A stretch of 64,000 nt of DNA from Oxalobacteraceae bacterium (GTDB lineage Bacteria; Pseudomonadota; Gammaproteobacteria; Burkholderiales; Burkholderiaceae_D). The stretch spans positions 1-64,000 of the forward strand of contig JAIZVZ010000003.1 of the NCBI GenBank assembly GCA_021768485.1, given 5' to 3'. A program made the position numbers and the translations under genes. Of the stretch, positions 4,322-51,357 are shown in pieces (the first letter of the stretch is position 1; every line of letters starts with the position of its first letter). Below the pieces are notes generated by a model that was not told the DNA's origin, did no database searches, and saw only the letters and a program-made list of their open reading frames with translations.

Positions 4322-4623
4322 TGATCAATTTCTTCAAAAATTCCAGAATTAATTTTAAAGGCGACAGCCTGCTCGCCAATTTATAAAACCCGGTGCCGGG
4401 CAAACCATCTCGAGGCCGGCGCCGCTGACGCCCATCCGGCACCACGCGCATTGTCGCATGAGCCGGGCCGTGCGCCGCACCGAATGCCGCCAAAAAACAA
4501 AAAGCACGGCCGTCTTTTTCACAATATCTCGTTCATAATATTTTGCGTTATCATCATATACATTCGCCGCGATCCCGTTTTTTTTCGATAAGCGGGACGA
4601 CGGCTCACATTTTCGGAGACATG

Positions 4624-29224: not shown

Positions 29225-29300
29225 TGGCGTCCCCAAGGGGATTCGAACCCCTGTACTCACCGTGAAAGGGTGATGTCCTAGGCCTCTAGACGATGGGGAC
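29225..29300 (-). tRNA. tRNA-Glu (anticodon TTC), copy 2
   Basis: A 76-base cloverleaf with encoded CCA: acceptor GTCCCCA / TGGGGAC, anticodon loop CTTTCAC (anticodon TTC) and T-loop GGTTCGAATCC. It is identical to the copy at 29409-29484. A terminator lies between the two, so this copy probably depends on readthrough or its own promoter. Confidence 0.97.
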
Positions 29301-29365
29301 CTGAACTGTTTTTTTCGACCAGGCTGGGATGGTCGAAAATACTGCAAAAAACGCACACTGCTAAA

Positions 29366-29390
29366 ATAAAAAACCCTGACATAATCAGGG
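29366..29390 (-). terminator. Intrinsic terminator between the two tRNA-Glu genes
   Basis: CCCTGA / TCAGGG stem with five-base loop and a TTTTTT run on the minus strand, 19 bases after the first tRNA-Glu. Confidence 0.8.
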
Positions 29391-29408
29391 CATTTTAAAC
29401 CTCAATCC

Positions 29409-29484
29409 TGGCGTCCCCAAGGGGATTCGAACCCCTGTACTCACCGTGAAAGGGTGATGTCCTAGGCCTCTAGACGATGGGGAC
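29409..29484 (-). tRNA. tRNA-Glu (anticodon TTC), copy 1
   Basis: A 76-base cloverleaf with encoded CCA and anticodon TTC, same sequence as the copy at 29225. It lies 42 bases after tRNA-Ala in the direction of transcription and is followed by an intrinsic terminator. Confidence 0.97.
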
Positions 29485-29526
29485 TGCGGTAAAACATTTT
29501 CTACGCCGGCACATCCAAAAAGATGT

Positions 29527-29602
<76 letters not shown>

Positions 29603-43319: not shown

Positions 43320-45593
43320 ATGCACCCCACGCGCAAACTGTGGACCTGGCTCGGCATCATCTGTGCACTGTCCTTCGCCGTACTCGGCTGGGTCGGCACC
43401 GAGATTTACCTGACAGCCCCTCCCATTCCGAAGCAAGTCCTCAGCGTCGACGGCAGCGTGCTGTTCGACGAGGGCCAGGTGGTGCGCGGCCAGCAAGCCT
43501 GGCTGTCGGCCGGCGGCCAGCAGTTGGGCACCGTCTGGGGCCACGGCAGCTATGTCGCGCCCGACTGGTCGGCCGACTGGCTGCACCGCGAAGCGCTGGC
43601 GCTGCGCGATATCTGGGCCCGGCGCAGCTACGGCGCCGCGTTCGAAACCCTGACGGTCGGCCAGCAGGCAGAACTGAACGGCCGCCTGAAGGATGAAATG
43701 CGGCGCAATACCTACGACAAGGCCAGCGACACGATCGTCGTCTCCAAGGACCGCGCCGCCGCCATTGCCGCCATCGCCAGCCACTACACTGGCCTGTTCG
43801 GCACCGATCCGGCGCTCGACAAGCTGCGCACGCAATATGCGATGAATGCCAATTCGCTACCGGATCAGGGCGACCTGAAAGCATTGCCGGCCTTTGTCTT
43901 CTGGTCGGCCTGGGCGGCCGCCACCGACCGCCCCGGCGCGCTGAACCTGTCCTACACCAGCAACTGGCCGCATGAGCCGCTGGTCGGCAATACGCCAACG
44001 GCCGGCGCCGGCATCTGGTCGATCGCCAGCGTGATCCTGATGATCGCCGCCATCGCCGCCATGATTTTCTATCATTCGATGCACAAGGAAGAGGCCGATC
44101 CGACGCCGCCGAAAAGCGATCCGCTGTTCAGCCTGAAAGCCACGCCATCGATGCAGGCCACGAAAAAGTACTTTGTGGTCGTGATCGGCCTGATCCTGGC
44201 CCAGGTCGCGATGGGCGTCGTCACCGCCCACTACGCGGTCGAAGGCAAGAGCTTCTTCGGCTTCCCGCTGGCCGACTTCCTGCCGTTTATCGTCAGCCGC
44301 ACCATCCATACGCAATTTGCGGTCTTGTGGATCGCCACCGCCTGGCTCGCCACCGGCCTGTACATTGCGCCGGCCATTTCCGGCCATGAGCCGCGCTTCC
44401 AGAAATTCGGCGTCAATTTCCTGTTCTATGCGCTGCTGGTGATCGTGGTCGGTTCGACCGTCTGCGGCTGGCTCGGCACCCTGCAGCACAAGGGCACGGC
44501 GTTCGCATTCTGGATCGGCAATCAGGGCCTCGAATTTACCAGCATGGGCCGCATCTGGCAGATCCTGCTGTTCGTCGGCCTGCTGCTGTGGGCAACCTTG
44601 CTCGGACGAGGCTTGTGGCCGGCGCTGAAAAAGCCATCGGAAAGCCGCGGCCTGATCGCCATGGTGTTTCTGGCGGCGACCTGCATCGGCGGCTTTTATG
44701 CCACCTCGCTGACCTGGGGTCCGCACACCCACTACTCGATGATCGAATACTGGCGCTGGTGGCTCGTGCATCTGTGGGTCGAAGGCTTTTTCGAAGTATT
44801 CGCCACGGCCGTGATCGCCCTGCTGTTCACGCGTCTCGGTCTGATCCGGGCCGCCACCGCGAACACCGCGATCGTACTGGAAACCATCGTGTTCCTGTTC
44901 GGCGGCATCCTCGGCACCCTGCATCACCTGTACTTTACCGGCACGCCGACTTTCGTGATCGCCATCGGCGCCATGTTCTCGGCACTCGAAGTGGTGCCGC
45001 TGGCAATGATCGGTTTCGACGCCTACAACAGCTACCGGCGCTCGAAGGCCGCACCGTGGGTACAGACTTACAAGTGGTCGATCCTGTGCTTCCTGGCGGT
45101 CGGCTTCTGGAACATGATCGGCGCCGGCCTGCTGGGCTTTTCGATCAATACGCCGATCGCGCTGTATTACATGCAGGGCCTGAACATGACGGCGGCCCAT
45201 GGCCATGCAGCCCTGTTCGGTGTCTACGGCATGCTCGGCATCGGCCTGATGCTGTTCTGCCTGCGCGGTCTGACCGAGCGCGCCGCCTGGTCCGACAAGC
45301 TGCTCGGCGCGATGTTCTGGCTGCTCAATATCGGCCTGGCGATGATGGTCTTCATCTCGCTGGTCCCGGCCGGCATTTACCAGGCGTTCGCCAGCGTCAC
45401 CAAAGGCATGTGGTATGCGCGTTCGCCGGAAGTGATCCATTCGAAGGTAATGGAAACCCTGGTCTGGCTGCGGGTGCCCGGCGACGTCGTGTTCGCGCTC
45501 GGCGTGCTGTGCCTGGCACTGTTTGCGTGGCGCCTGCTGACGGCCGCCCGAGCGCCAAGCACGAAAAGCGCAACAGCCGCGGGCAAGGCATAA
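43320..45593 (+). CDS. norZ: Quinol-dependent nitric oxide reductase (qNOR)
   Basis: 757 residues, the length of the fused single-subunit enzyme. The N-terminal periplasmic extension resembles NorC without a haem-c motif (residues ~30-220). The twelve-helix NorB core holds the haem and iron ligands: RTIHTQFAVLWIATAWLATGLYI, WWLVHLWVEGFFEVFATA, GTLHHLYFTG and AAHGHAALFGVYG. It reduces two NO to N2O with quinol electrons at the inner membrane. A UUCG-loop terminator follows 40 bases after the stop, and a candidate NsrR operator precedes it. It removes the NO made by NirK, encoded downstream. Confidence 0.97.
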   Translation: MHPTRKLWTWLGIICALSFAVLGWVGTEIYLTAPPIPKQVLSVDGSVLFDEGQVVRGQQAWLSAGGQQLGTVWGHGSYVAPDWSADWLHREALALRDIWARRSYGAAFETLTVGQQAELNGRLKDEMRRNTYDKASDTIVVSKDRAAAIAAIASHYTGLFGTDPALDKLRTQYAMNANSLPDQGDLKALPAFVFWSAWAAATDRPGALNLSYTSNWPHEPLVGNTPTAGAGIWSIASVILMIAAIAAMIFYHSMHKEEADPTPPKSDPLFSLKATPSMQATKKYFVVVIGLILAQVAMGVVTAHYAVEGKSFFGFPLADFLPFIVSRTIHTQFAVLWIATAWLATGLYIAPAISGHEPRFQKFGVNFLFYALLVIVVGSTVCGWLGTLQHKGTAFAFWIGNQGLEFTSMGRIWQILLFVGLLLWATLLGRGLWPALKKPSESRGLIAMVFLAATCIGGFYATSLTWGPHTHYSMIEYWRWWLVHLWVEGFFEVFATAVIALLFTRLGLIRAATANTAIVLETIVFLFGGILGTLHHLYFTGTPTFVIAIGAMFSALEVVPLAMIGFDAYNSYRRSKAAPWVQTYKWSILCFLAVGFWNMIGAGLLGFSINTPIALYYMQGLNMTAAHGHAALFGVYGMLGIGLMLFCLRGLTERAAWSDKLLGAMFWLLNIGLAMMVFISLVPAGIYQAFASVTKGMWYARSPEVIHSKVMETLVWLRVPGDVVFALGVLCLALFAWRLLTAARAPSTKSATAAGKA

Positions 45594-50264: not shown

Positions 50265-50381
50265 ATTGATTTGATGGCCCCATGCGCGGCACTCTGCTGG
50301 CGCATGGCGGACCTGCTCCTGGCCGCGACAAGCACCACTTGCAGCAGGCACAGGCGCAAATGAGACGGAAAAACACGATCT

Positions 50382-50525
50382 AAAAAAACAAAAGCCCGCG
50401 ACCGGAAGGTGGCAGGCTATATTTACTCTATATCTATCTGATAAGTAGTAAATCAATCAATATACAATTCCGGCGACTATATTGCGACGTGAACTACATA
50501 TTTCCAGGTCAATTTCTTTTCCTGT
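50382..50525 (-). ncRNA. Candidate small RNA, copy 1 of a tandem pair
   Basis: A 144-base predicted transcript. Promoter: -35 TTGCGT (50554-50559 on the minus strand), 16-base spacer, -10 TATTAT (50532-50537). Terminator: AGCC-TGC-ACC / GGT-GC-GGCT stem (50393-50418) followed by TTTTGTTTTTTT. The body contains ATATGTAG, CACGTCGCA, a TTTACT / AGTAAA stem and TCAGATAGAT, all shared with copy 2. No open frame of note runs along it. Homology between copies covers promoter, body and terminator, as expected of a duplicated RNA gene. Convergent with the CBS gene. Family not recognised. Confidence 0.68.
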
Positions 50526-50756
50526 GATTTAATAATACCAGAAAAAAACTTCTACGCAAGCATTATTTTCAATTTTTTCGAATTTCAGCAACAGCCGACG
50601 GCGACCGCCATCGCACGCCCCTTCAAACCCGACAATTGCGGCAATGACGGCACAAACCTAGGCGGCGGGGTCGGCGACCGGACTGGAAAAACGCGGCATG
50701 CCCCGGAAAAAGCAAGACGTCGAAAAAGCCGGTTCAACGAATCGCGCCTCACAATA

Positions 50757-50896
50757 TAAAAAGCCCGCGACCCAAAGGTGGCAGGCTGGCATTTACCCTA
50801 ATCTATCTGAATAGTAGTAAATTGAAACAATATATAAATCCGGCGGCTATAGTGCGACGTGACCTACATATTTGCAAGCGATTTGATGTCGCCCAC
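50757..50896 (-). ncRNA. Candidate small RNA, copy 2 of a tandem pair
   Basis: A 140-base predicted transcript. Promoter: -35 TTGCGC (50925-50930, minus strand), 16-base spacer, -10 TATTAT (50903-50908). Terminator: AGCC-TGC-ACC / GGT-GC-GGCT stem (50762-50787) followed by TTTTTA. The body aligns with copy 1 almost throughout, while the 5' leader (first ~25 bases) differs. The TTTAC / GTAAA stem is kept despite a base change in one arm. It starts about 370 bases upstream of copy 1 on the same strand. Likely a regulatory RNA gene; target unknown. Confidence 0.68.
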
Positions 50897-51183
50897 GAAT
50901 TAATAATATCAGAAATATTTTTCCGCGCAACTCTTTTTTTATCTTGTCGTCGATTGGCAACAACAGCAGCGGCAACCATGAAATCGCGGCCGCAAAAGCG
51001 ATGCGGCGAGGCCGCACGGCGCCCACGTGTTCCATCCAAATCAGGCCCGGCCTCGCCCCTTCCCTGGCAAGTTCAGCAGGCATTTGATCGCAAATTGTGT
51101 TCATCCCGCGAGTGTGATGCAGCAAGCGCAAATAATTTGCCGAAACTCAATGTGGCTGCTTGCCGCGCGCGTTATCCTTTAGC

Positions 51184-51357
51184 ATGAAGCAAAAGTTACA
51201 AACAACACCGCCTCCCACCCCCAACCGGCAAGCCCTTATTCAAGAGGCCTTGCGCATCCAGGCCGAACTCGACGACATGAGCGCGACGGCCTATCTGATG
51301 CGGGCCGGTCTTGGCTTTGCCGATGCGCTCCGCATTTTGCTGTTAAAGCACAAGTAA
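51184..51357 (+). CDS. Small hypothetical protein
   Basis: 57 residues: MKQKLQTTPPPTPNRQALI, then a helix-rich QEALRIQAELDDMSATAYLMRAGLGFADALRILLLKHK. The second part is amphipathic with even codon use typical of the genome, which favours a real gene. There is no strong ribosome site, and I recognise no family. It lies just upstream of the DnaA-box-like element before pdxH. An alternative start at 51160 would add eight residues. Confidence 0.5.
   Translation: MKQKLQTTPPPTPNRQALIQEALRIQAELDDMSATAYLMRAGLGFADALRILLLKHK

Follow-up and report, generated by a model that had tools for sequence, protein, structure and literature searches.

Two predicted tandem small-RNA genes of an Oxalobacteraceae bacterium with hairpins that resemble a hairpin family of related bacteria and phages

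Repeated protein-docking hairpins within one RNA are known from the CsrB/RsmZ sponge RNAs, and RtT RNA and 3'ETS-leuZ are hairpin or repeat RNAs transcribed next to tRNA genes. Among small RNAs encoded side by side, NgncR_162 and NgncR_163 of Neisseria are presented in passages of PMC9973317 as adjacent paralogous sRNA genes, 78% identical and with a similar fold of three stem-loops, and passages of PMC4211561 give PrrF1/F2, OmrA/B and AbcR1/2 as tandem siblings and report that read-through of PrrF gives PrrH. For the Oxalobacteraceae, an excerpt of PMC7011215 describes the Betaproteobacteria toxic small RNA (RF02278) as multi-copy and low-GC, with four in Herbaspirillum seropedicae.

The pair of loci considered here lies in the first 64,000 nucleotides of contig JAIZVZ010000003.1 of an Oxalobacteraceae bacterium (GCA_021768485.1), the whole of which was analysed and is called the window. 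Like NgncR_162/163, the pair consists of two highly similar adjacent predicted small-RNA genes, a likeness of description and not of compared sequences, but the window RNAs carry two similar hairpin modules each and no seed region was identified in them. RF02278 gave no match in the intergenic gap that holds the pair (E<=5), in six loci sharing its terminator (E<=1) or in four loci with the module described below (E<=10). The module loops differ from CsrB/RsmZ in having no GGA in the folds that were read, and the Csr/Rsm covariance models gave no match in the gap and a chance-level rsmX match in one further locus (L136; 18.6 bits, gathering 56, E=8.4).

The gap of 919 bases (50265-51183) is bounded by the end of the CBS ORF and by the next plausible start codon, at 51184. 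The original prediction placed two homologous minus-strand segments with promoter, body and terminator in it, and this is confirmed: the two units, at about 50385-50559 (copy 1) and about 50757-50930 (copy 2), are alike from the -35 to the terminator, and their local alignment scores 154, where the best of 2000 dinucleotide shuffles reaches 30. The identity is 29/42 in the promoter, 12/23 in the leader, 72/84 in the core and 27/29 in the terminator, the leader being the least conserved segment within the unit. The 5' leaders of the two copies thus differ, as had been predicted, yet both are predicted to fold as hairpins. Homology in the terminators only, which would have spoken against a pair of RNA genes, is not what is found, the score with the terminator removed still being 117 against a shuffle maximum of 35. 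The upstream flanks of the two units gave an alignment score of 21, reached by 171/1000 shuffles, and the downstream flanks a score of 18, reached by 326/1000. Homology that is confined to the transcription unit, with flanks within the range of the shuffles, suggests that selection preserved the unit as its surroundings diverged; the same pattern would result if exactly the unit, and nothing else, had been duplicated. No ORF common to both copies was seen when the sequence was inspected by eye.

The predicted promoter arrangement of TTGCGY, 16 bases and TATTAT is present in both copies, all on the minus strand, as TTGCGT (50554..50559) and TATTAT (TGGTATTAT; 50532..50537) in copy 1 and as TTGCGC (50925..50930) and TATTAT (TGATATTAT; 50903..50908) in copy 2, with a TG one base 5' of each -10 that makes it an extended -10. 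The -35-like elements, which have TTGCG in common, agree with the consensus at only 3/6 positions, a scan with the sigma-70 consensus detected no promoter in the region, and a crude promoter score favoured a different -10 for copy 1. The case for the promoters rests on conservation together with the extended -10 (TGNTATTAT).

Each RNA is predicted to fold as a leader hairpin, hairpin 1, hairpin 2 and a terminator. For copy 1 (minus strand, predicted start near 50525), fold and alignment give a 5' leader hairpin at 50505..50524, followed by hairpin 1 with a bulged A and the loop AAUAUA (50459..50502), hairpin 2 with the loop AGAUA and, in the MFE, a 3x3 internal loop that replaces the bulged A (50421..50453), and a terminator hairpin with a long U tract (50385..50418). 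The fold of copy 2 (minus strand, predicted start near 50896) has its 5' leader hairpin at 50874..50896, hairpin 1 with a bulged A and the loop ACUAUA at 50829..50872, hairpin 2 with a bulged A and the loop AGAUA at 50791..50822, and a terminator hairpin with a short U tract, U5 only, at 50757..50787. The terminators are assigned from fold and sequence, both hairpins 2 from the fold and from the scorer discussed below, and both hairpins 1 in addition from structural alignment. Neither terminator was listed in a terminator scan, perhaps because of a 1x1 mismatch in the stem. Since copy 2 is upstream of copy 1, read-through could yield a fused RNA, as with PrrH from PrrF1/F2 (PMC4211561), and may be allowed by the shortness of the copy 2 U tract.

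The fold energies correspond to z-scores of -2.90 (copy 1) and -2.83 (copy 2), with 1/200 shuffles as good for each, and the two leader hairpins are equalled by 9/1000 and 17/1000 single-base shuffles. The substitutions in copy 2 retain 36/38 of the copy-1 pairs, which is equalled by 2/2000 random placements of the same substitutions; the number of MFE pairs shared between the copies is matched by 0/2000, and in the reverse direction each of the two measures by 1/2000. The changes in the stems comprise one compensatory change (hairpin 1, U-A to G-U) and two that are one-sided with the pairing kept; hairpin 2 of copy 1 has two inner pairs that copy 2 does not retain. The matched promoter and terminator segments, the fold-preserving substitutions and the unit-limited homology support the prediction that the two neighbouring loci are tandem paralogous small-RNA genes, with putative minus-strand transcripts of about 140 nt.

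The distribution of the RNA body was investigated by BLASTN and with a body model (R1). Copy 1 searched against 60 genomes, the own genome included, matched the body in the window genome only, with short matches in 2 others, and copy 2 searched against 392 genomes, again with the own genome, matched the body in the window genome only and the terminator only in 8 others. The model finds exactly two copies in the window genome at E<=10, no further copy in 391 other genomes of the family, no other copy in a sample of 399 genomes of the order (which overlaps the family set) and, with looser filters, nothing beyond the window genome among 40 relatives, the genus of the window genome being represented by one genome in the searched sets. 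In 29 non-own pdxH loci the same model had no match, and in 9 terminator loci it had two weak ones (E=0.083 and 1.3). A fixed body pattern had no match in a collection of genome contigs from which the own genome is perhaps absent, and copy 2 had none in plasmid, phage and E. coli collections. Rfam at gathering level returned three tRNAs only for the whole window, and the gap matched no family either at that level or at E<=5, where one chance-level match appeared (Chloroflexi-1, E=2.4). Three minus-strand tRNA genes are situated at 29228-29602 of the window.

Among the 8 genomes that match the terminator, 4, all of genus g22, have a hairpin with a bulged A and the loop ACUAUA just 5' of it. These g22 loci are single-hairpin and sRNA-like, the module being followed by an intrinsic terminator, and a 5' hairpin precedes the module in at least 10 of 16 folded g22 loci (by eye) and is not universal there. 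The window pair has the same layout, with a 5' hairpin before and an intrinsic terminator after the module hairpins. When g22 loci were aligned by sequence with window hairpin 1, most shuffle tests were not significant, and the sole clear sequence match, between L013 and copy 1, falls outside hairpin 1. The structural alignment of six rows, from window hairpin 1, g22 and phage, pairs 72/72 cells; both sides are changed in 8/12 pairs, a number that 8/500 shuffles reach, and the covariation of 0.833, against 0.303 in shuffles, is reached by 0/500. The six rows were picked for likeness, and the structural alignment is therefore support and not proof. A g22 locus gave no match among plasmids. Directly 5' of the same AGCCTGC terminator, three genomes (L009, L010, L012) have another similar stretch (about AGGGCAGCGGC, then ACCTGAAGCCGAGA), which is perhaps another small RNA.

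The module hairpins appear to make up an undescribed family that occurs in bacteria and phages. Its features are a bulged A, a C-G pair, a small internal loop, a 3-bp stem and the loop ACUAUA or AGAUA, the apex being near-constant (UUUCC with GGACUGG or close variants) while the lower stem covaries; four spellings of the apex had no occurrence in the library of open-licence papers that was searched for them. A model built from six hairpins, two of them from the window (R2), was used to search 221 genomes of the family, no more than 30 candidates being scored in each. Its E-values apply to single genomes, and the evidence is for this reason restricted to rows at E<=0.01, of which there are 35 against about 2 expected by chance, 2 of the 35 being those of the window; with a cut-off of E<=0.5 in each genome, chance alone would give about 110 matches over the 221 genomes, and the tally of 55 genomes is not taken as evidence. 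The apical motif is present in 30/33 non-window rows at E<=0.01 (6 of these 30 are model members or share an identical 37-nt hairpin, as judged by eye) and in 41 of 50 loci read, some of them overlapping, which belong to 11 g22, 11 g28 and 3 g26 genomes and to the own contig C218. It is thereby confirmed in 25 other genomes of three genera. The background contains one match to the apical pattern in 1.72 million positions, namely the own C218 copy, a canonical module (L168 1476-1511) located 17 nt 3' of tRNA-Thr within a cluster of five tRNAs. The structural alignment of 34 non-window hairpins pairs 95.4% of cells and has a covariation of 0.662 against 0.167 in shuffles, reached by 0/500, and its 8 doubly changed pairs are a number reached by 132/500 shuffles. 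Eight loci matched by R2 in g2, g5, g63, g64, g19 and g6 were taken as chance, the apical pattern being absent. A near-variant of the ACUAUA module (GCTTTCCACTATAGGATTGCGC) at L149 1101-1136 (G143, genus g64) misses the apical pattern and may be a real member or a chance match.

Tandem arrays of 2-5 units, which carry CACTTTCCAGATAGGACTGG, occur in 6/25 genomes (L154-L159), and none of them was used in building R2. The array of G240 has five copies 134-135 nt apart (L154 1480-2110), those of G209 and G153 have four each, that of G140 three and that of G231 two, and G175 (g26) has four copies at 109-117 nt. Tandem Repeats Finder reports the G240 array and misses the more diverged one of G175. 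The arrays of G240, G209 and G140 (L154, L155, L157) sit downstream of a tRNA-Gly/Cys cluster, and no tRNA was found near the G175 array in the stretch read. Some g28 arrays thus adjoin tRNA genes in the manner of RtT RNA and 3'ETS-leuZ, but there is no tRNA gene close to the window pair. Rfam assigned no family to the arrays that were scanned (L154, L155, L157, L159), nor to the terminator-sharing and module loci that were scanned.

In phages, the exact AGAUA apex occurs in 13 viral contigs (L194-L206), five of which form two near-identical groups by eye, and the ACUAUA apex in one further contig, which gives 14 viral contigs altogether. The AGAUA hairpin lies at most 50 nt from a predicted tRNA in 4/10 viral contigs checked, and in L202 its apex (4534-4553) falls between two predicted tRNA genes. 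The ACUAUA contig (L123 2278-2345) has the module and then a terminator, upstream of a region read from its ORFs as terminase; no tRNA was predicted in this stretch, and its surroundings resemble, by eye, a locus in G021 that is apparently a prophage. A search of viral contigs with a second pattern, which represents the ACUAUA variant with TGGG, was negative. The L123 module had no match among phages and a viral module none in E. coli, and a unit from g26 had no plasmid match and 13 phage matches at chance level (E=5).

Each window RNA combines one ACUAUA-type hairpin (AAUAUA in copy 1, with one change) and one AGAUA hairpin. The C[A]C bulge is found in hairpin 1 of both copies, where the pairs 9-30 and 11-29 are C-G in 6/6 rows of the structural alignment, and the bulged A of hairpin 2 is present in copy 2 and absent from the MFE of copy 1. 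A loop of ACUAUA or AGAUA closed by C-G is found in hairpin 1 of copy 2 and in both hairpins 2. The canonical apex UUUCC / GGACUGG is missing, as the window pair (L132) has no match to the degenerate apical pattern, and this makes the window hairpins divergent members or analogues and not canonical members. A scorer trained solely on the 34 non-window hairpins places hairpin 1 at ranks 1 (copy 2) and 2 (copy 1) and hairpin 2 at ranks 3 (copy 2) and 15 (copy 1) of 127894 positions. In a background of 1.59 million positions, the own C218 aside, one position reaches 19.9 (the top window score is 19.95), 20 reach 14.4 and 158 reach 8.7; three of the four window scores are accordingly not rare singly, and the joint occurrence of such scores within RNAs of about 115 nt is not expected by chance. 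The scorer allows a one-base insertion, an option introduced with hairpin 1 known, and its independence is partial since most of the 34 training rows came via R2, in which 2/6 rows are window hairpins. A standard covariance model made without the window sequences (R3) gives weak scores, with copy 2 hairpin 1 at E=0.59 (rank 2/66), copy 2 hairpin 2 at E=1.9 (rank 13) and copy 1 unlisted. In our judgement the window hairpins are probably members of the wider family. The original prediction, which did not recognise a family, stands in that no Rfam family applies, but it is amended in that the structural alignment, the scorer and the apex survey show hairpins resembling those of Oxalobacteraceae and phages.

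A role in denitrification, redox or NO control had been suggested from the genes nearby. Among the neighbours, Pfam supports nitric oxide reductase B (43320-45590), SCO1, CBS, pyridoxamine phosphate oxidase and a multicopper oxidase that also has a cytochrome c domain and by our reading is NirK-like. Relatives of the CBS protein are present in 34/392 family genomes (own included) and at 42 named loci. A tblastn search with eight other neighbour proteins found none of them in 71 CBS-relative loci, the flanks of which (1.5 kb in 29 loci, at most 4 kb in 42) are too short for norB and cover only nearer neighbours, and R1 found nothing in 66 CBS-relative loci at E<=10. The duplex z-scores from a naive scan are unremarkable (norB 0.03/-0.32, nirK 1.19/-1.11, SCO1 0.68/-0.79, CBS -0.02/0.37), and the hairpin relatives are located elsewhere, some of them beside tRNA genes. 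Overall, these data do not support the suggested link.

The best explanation, which we hold tentatively and at slightly less than even confidence, is that the loci are two paralogous sRNA genes whose modules would be divergent family members docking an RNA-binding protein. In each gene an extended -10 promoter would be followed by a 5' hairpin, the two modules and an intrinsic terminator; the modules would serve as docking sites for the protein, and the RNAs would titrate or recruit what is docked. Protein-binding hairpins typically have an apex that hardly varies on a stem that is free to do so, and the repetition of such a hairpin within one RNA and in arrays has the look of a protein docking site. 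If the modules titrate a protein, their copy number would set the dose, and the tandem arrays fit with titration.

The alternative that survives best, although we consider it rather doubtful, is that the genes encode sibling base-pairing sRNAs of the NgncR_162/163 or PrrF1/2 kind, whose loops or linkers would act on mRNAs together with Hfq; the family likeness would then be superficial. Fast-evolving sRNAs are often genome-restricted, and the body is confined to the window genome in our searches. This genome encodes Hfq, the 3' end of copy 1 is a long U tract, and tandem sibling sRNAs of such a type are known from parts of PMC4211561 and PMC9973317. However, much of the conserved body falls in hairpins, and a duplex scan of the window, which ignores accessibility, brings out none of the 54 heuristically called genes as a target. 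An element acting at the level of DNA or of processing, that is, a DNA strand whose folded form serves a REP-type transposase, or else a processing signal of an RNase or a phage close to tRNAs, of which the window pair would be a domesticated or decayed form, is unlikely: the hairpins do occur in phage contigs, beside some tRNA genes and as tandem repeats, but the body has two copies only in the genome, the units have promoter-like and terminator segments of their own, and the lower stems covary and are not copied. Plain terminator and promoter repeats that have no functional RNA body are highly improbable, for although a body-less terminator is matched in 8/391 other family genomes, 4/8 of these have the module just upstream, and between the copies both the body and its structure have been conserved, unlike the flanks.

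Returning to the preferred reading of paralogous genes with protein-docking modules, a wider extension of it is possible, though to be held with more reserve: a new modular hairpin family may titrate an RNA-binding protein in Oxalobacteraceae, where hosts would have it in sRNA genes of one or two modules and in tandem arrays, some of these next to tRNA genes; phages, some of which have the hairpin within tRNA clusters, may use it to capture or mimic the host regulator, and the window pair may be a divergent version with two genes and four modules. The family has a short, clearly delimited apex. Should the modules bind a single protein, they would make up an RNA sponge system whose copy number climbs from one hairpin to arrays of five and which is common to hosts and phages, and Rfam-blank intergenic regions of Oxalobacteraceae would gain annotation.
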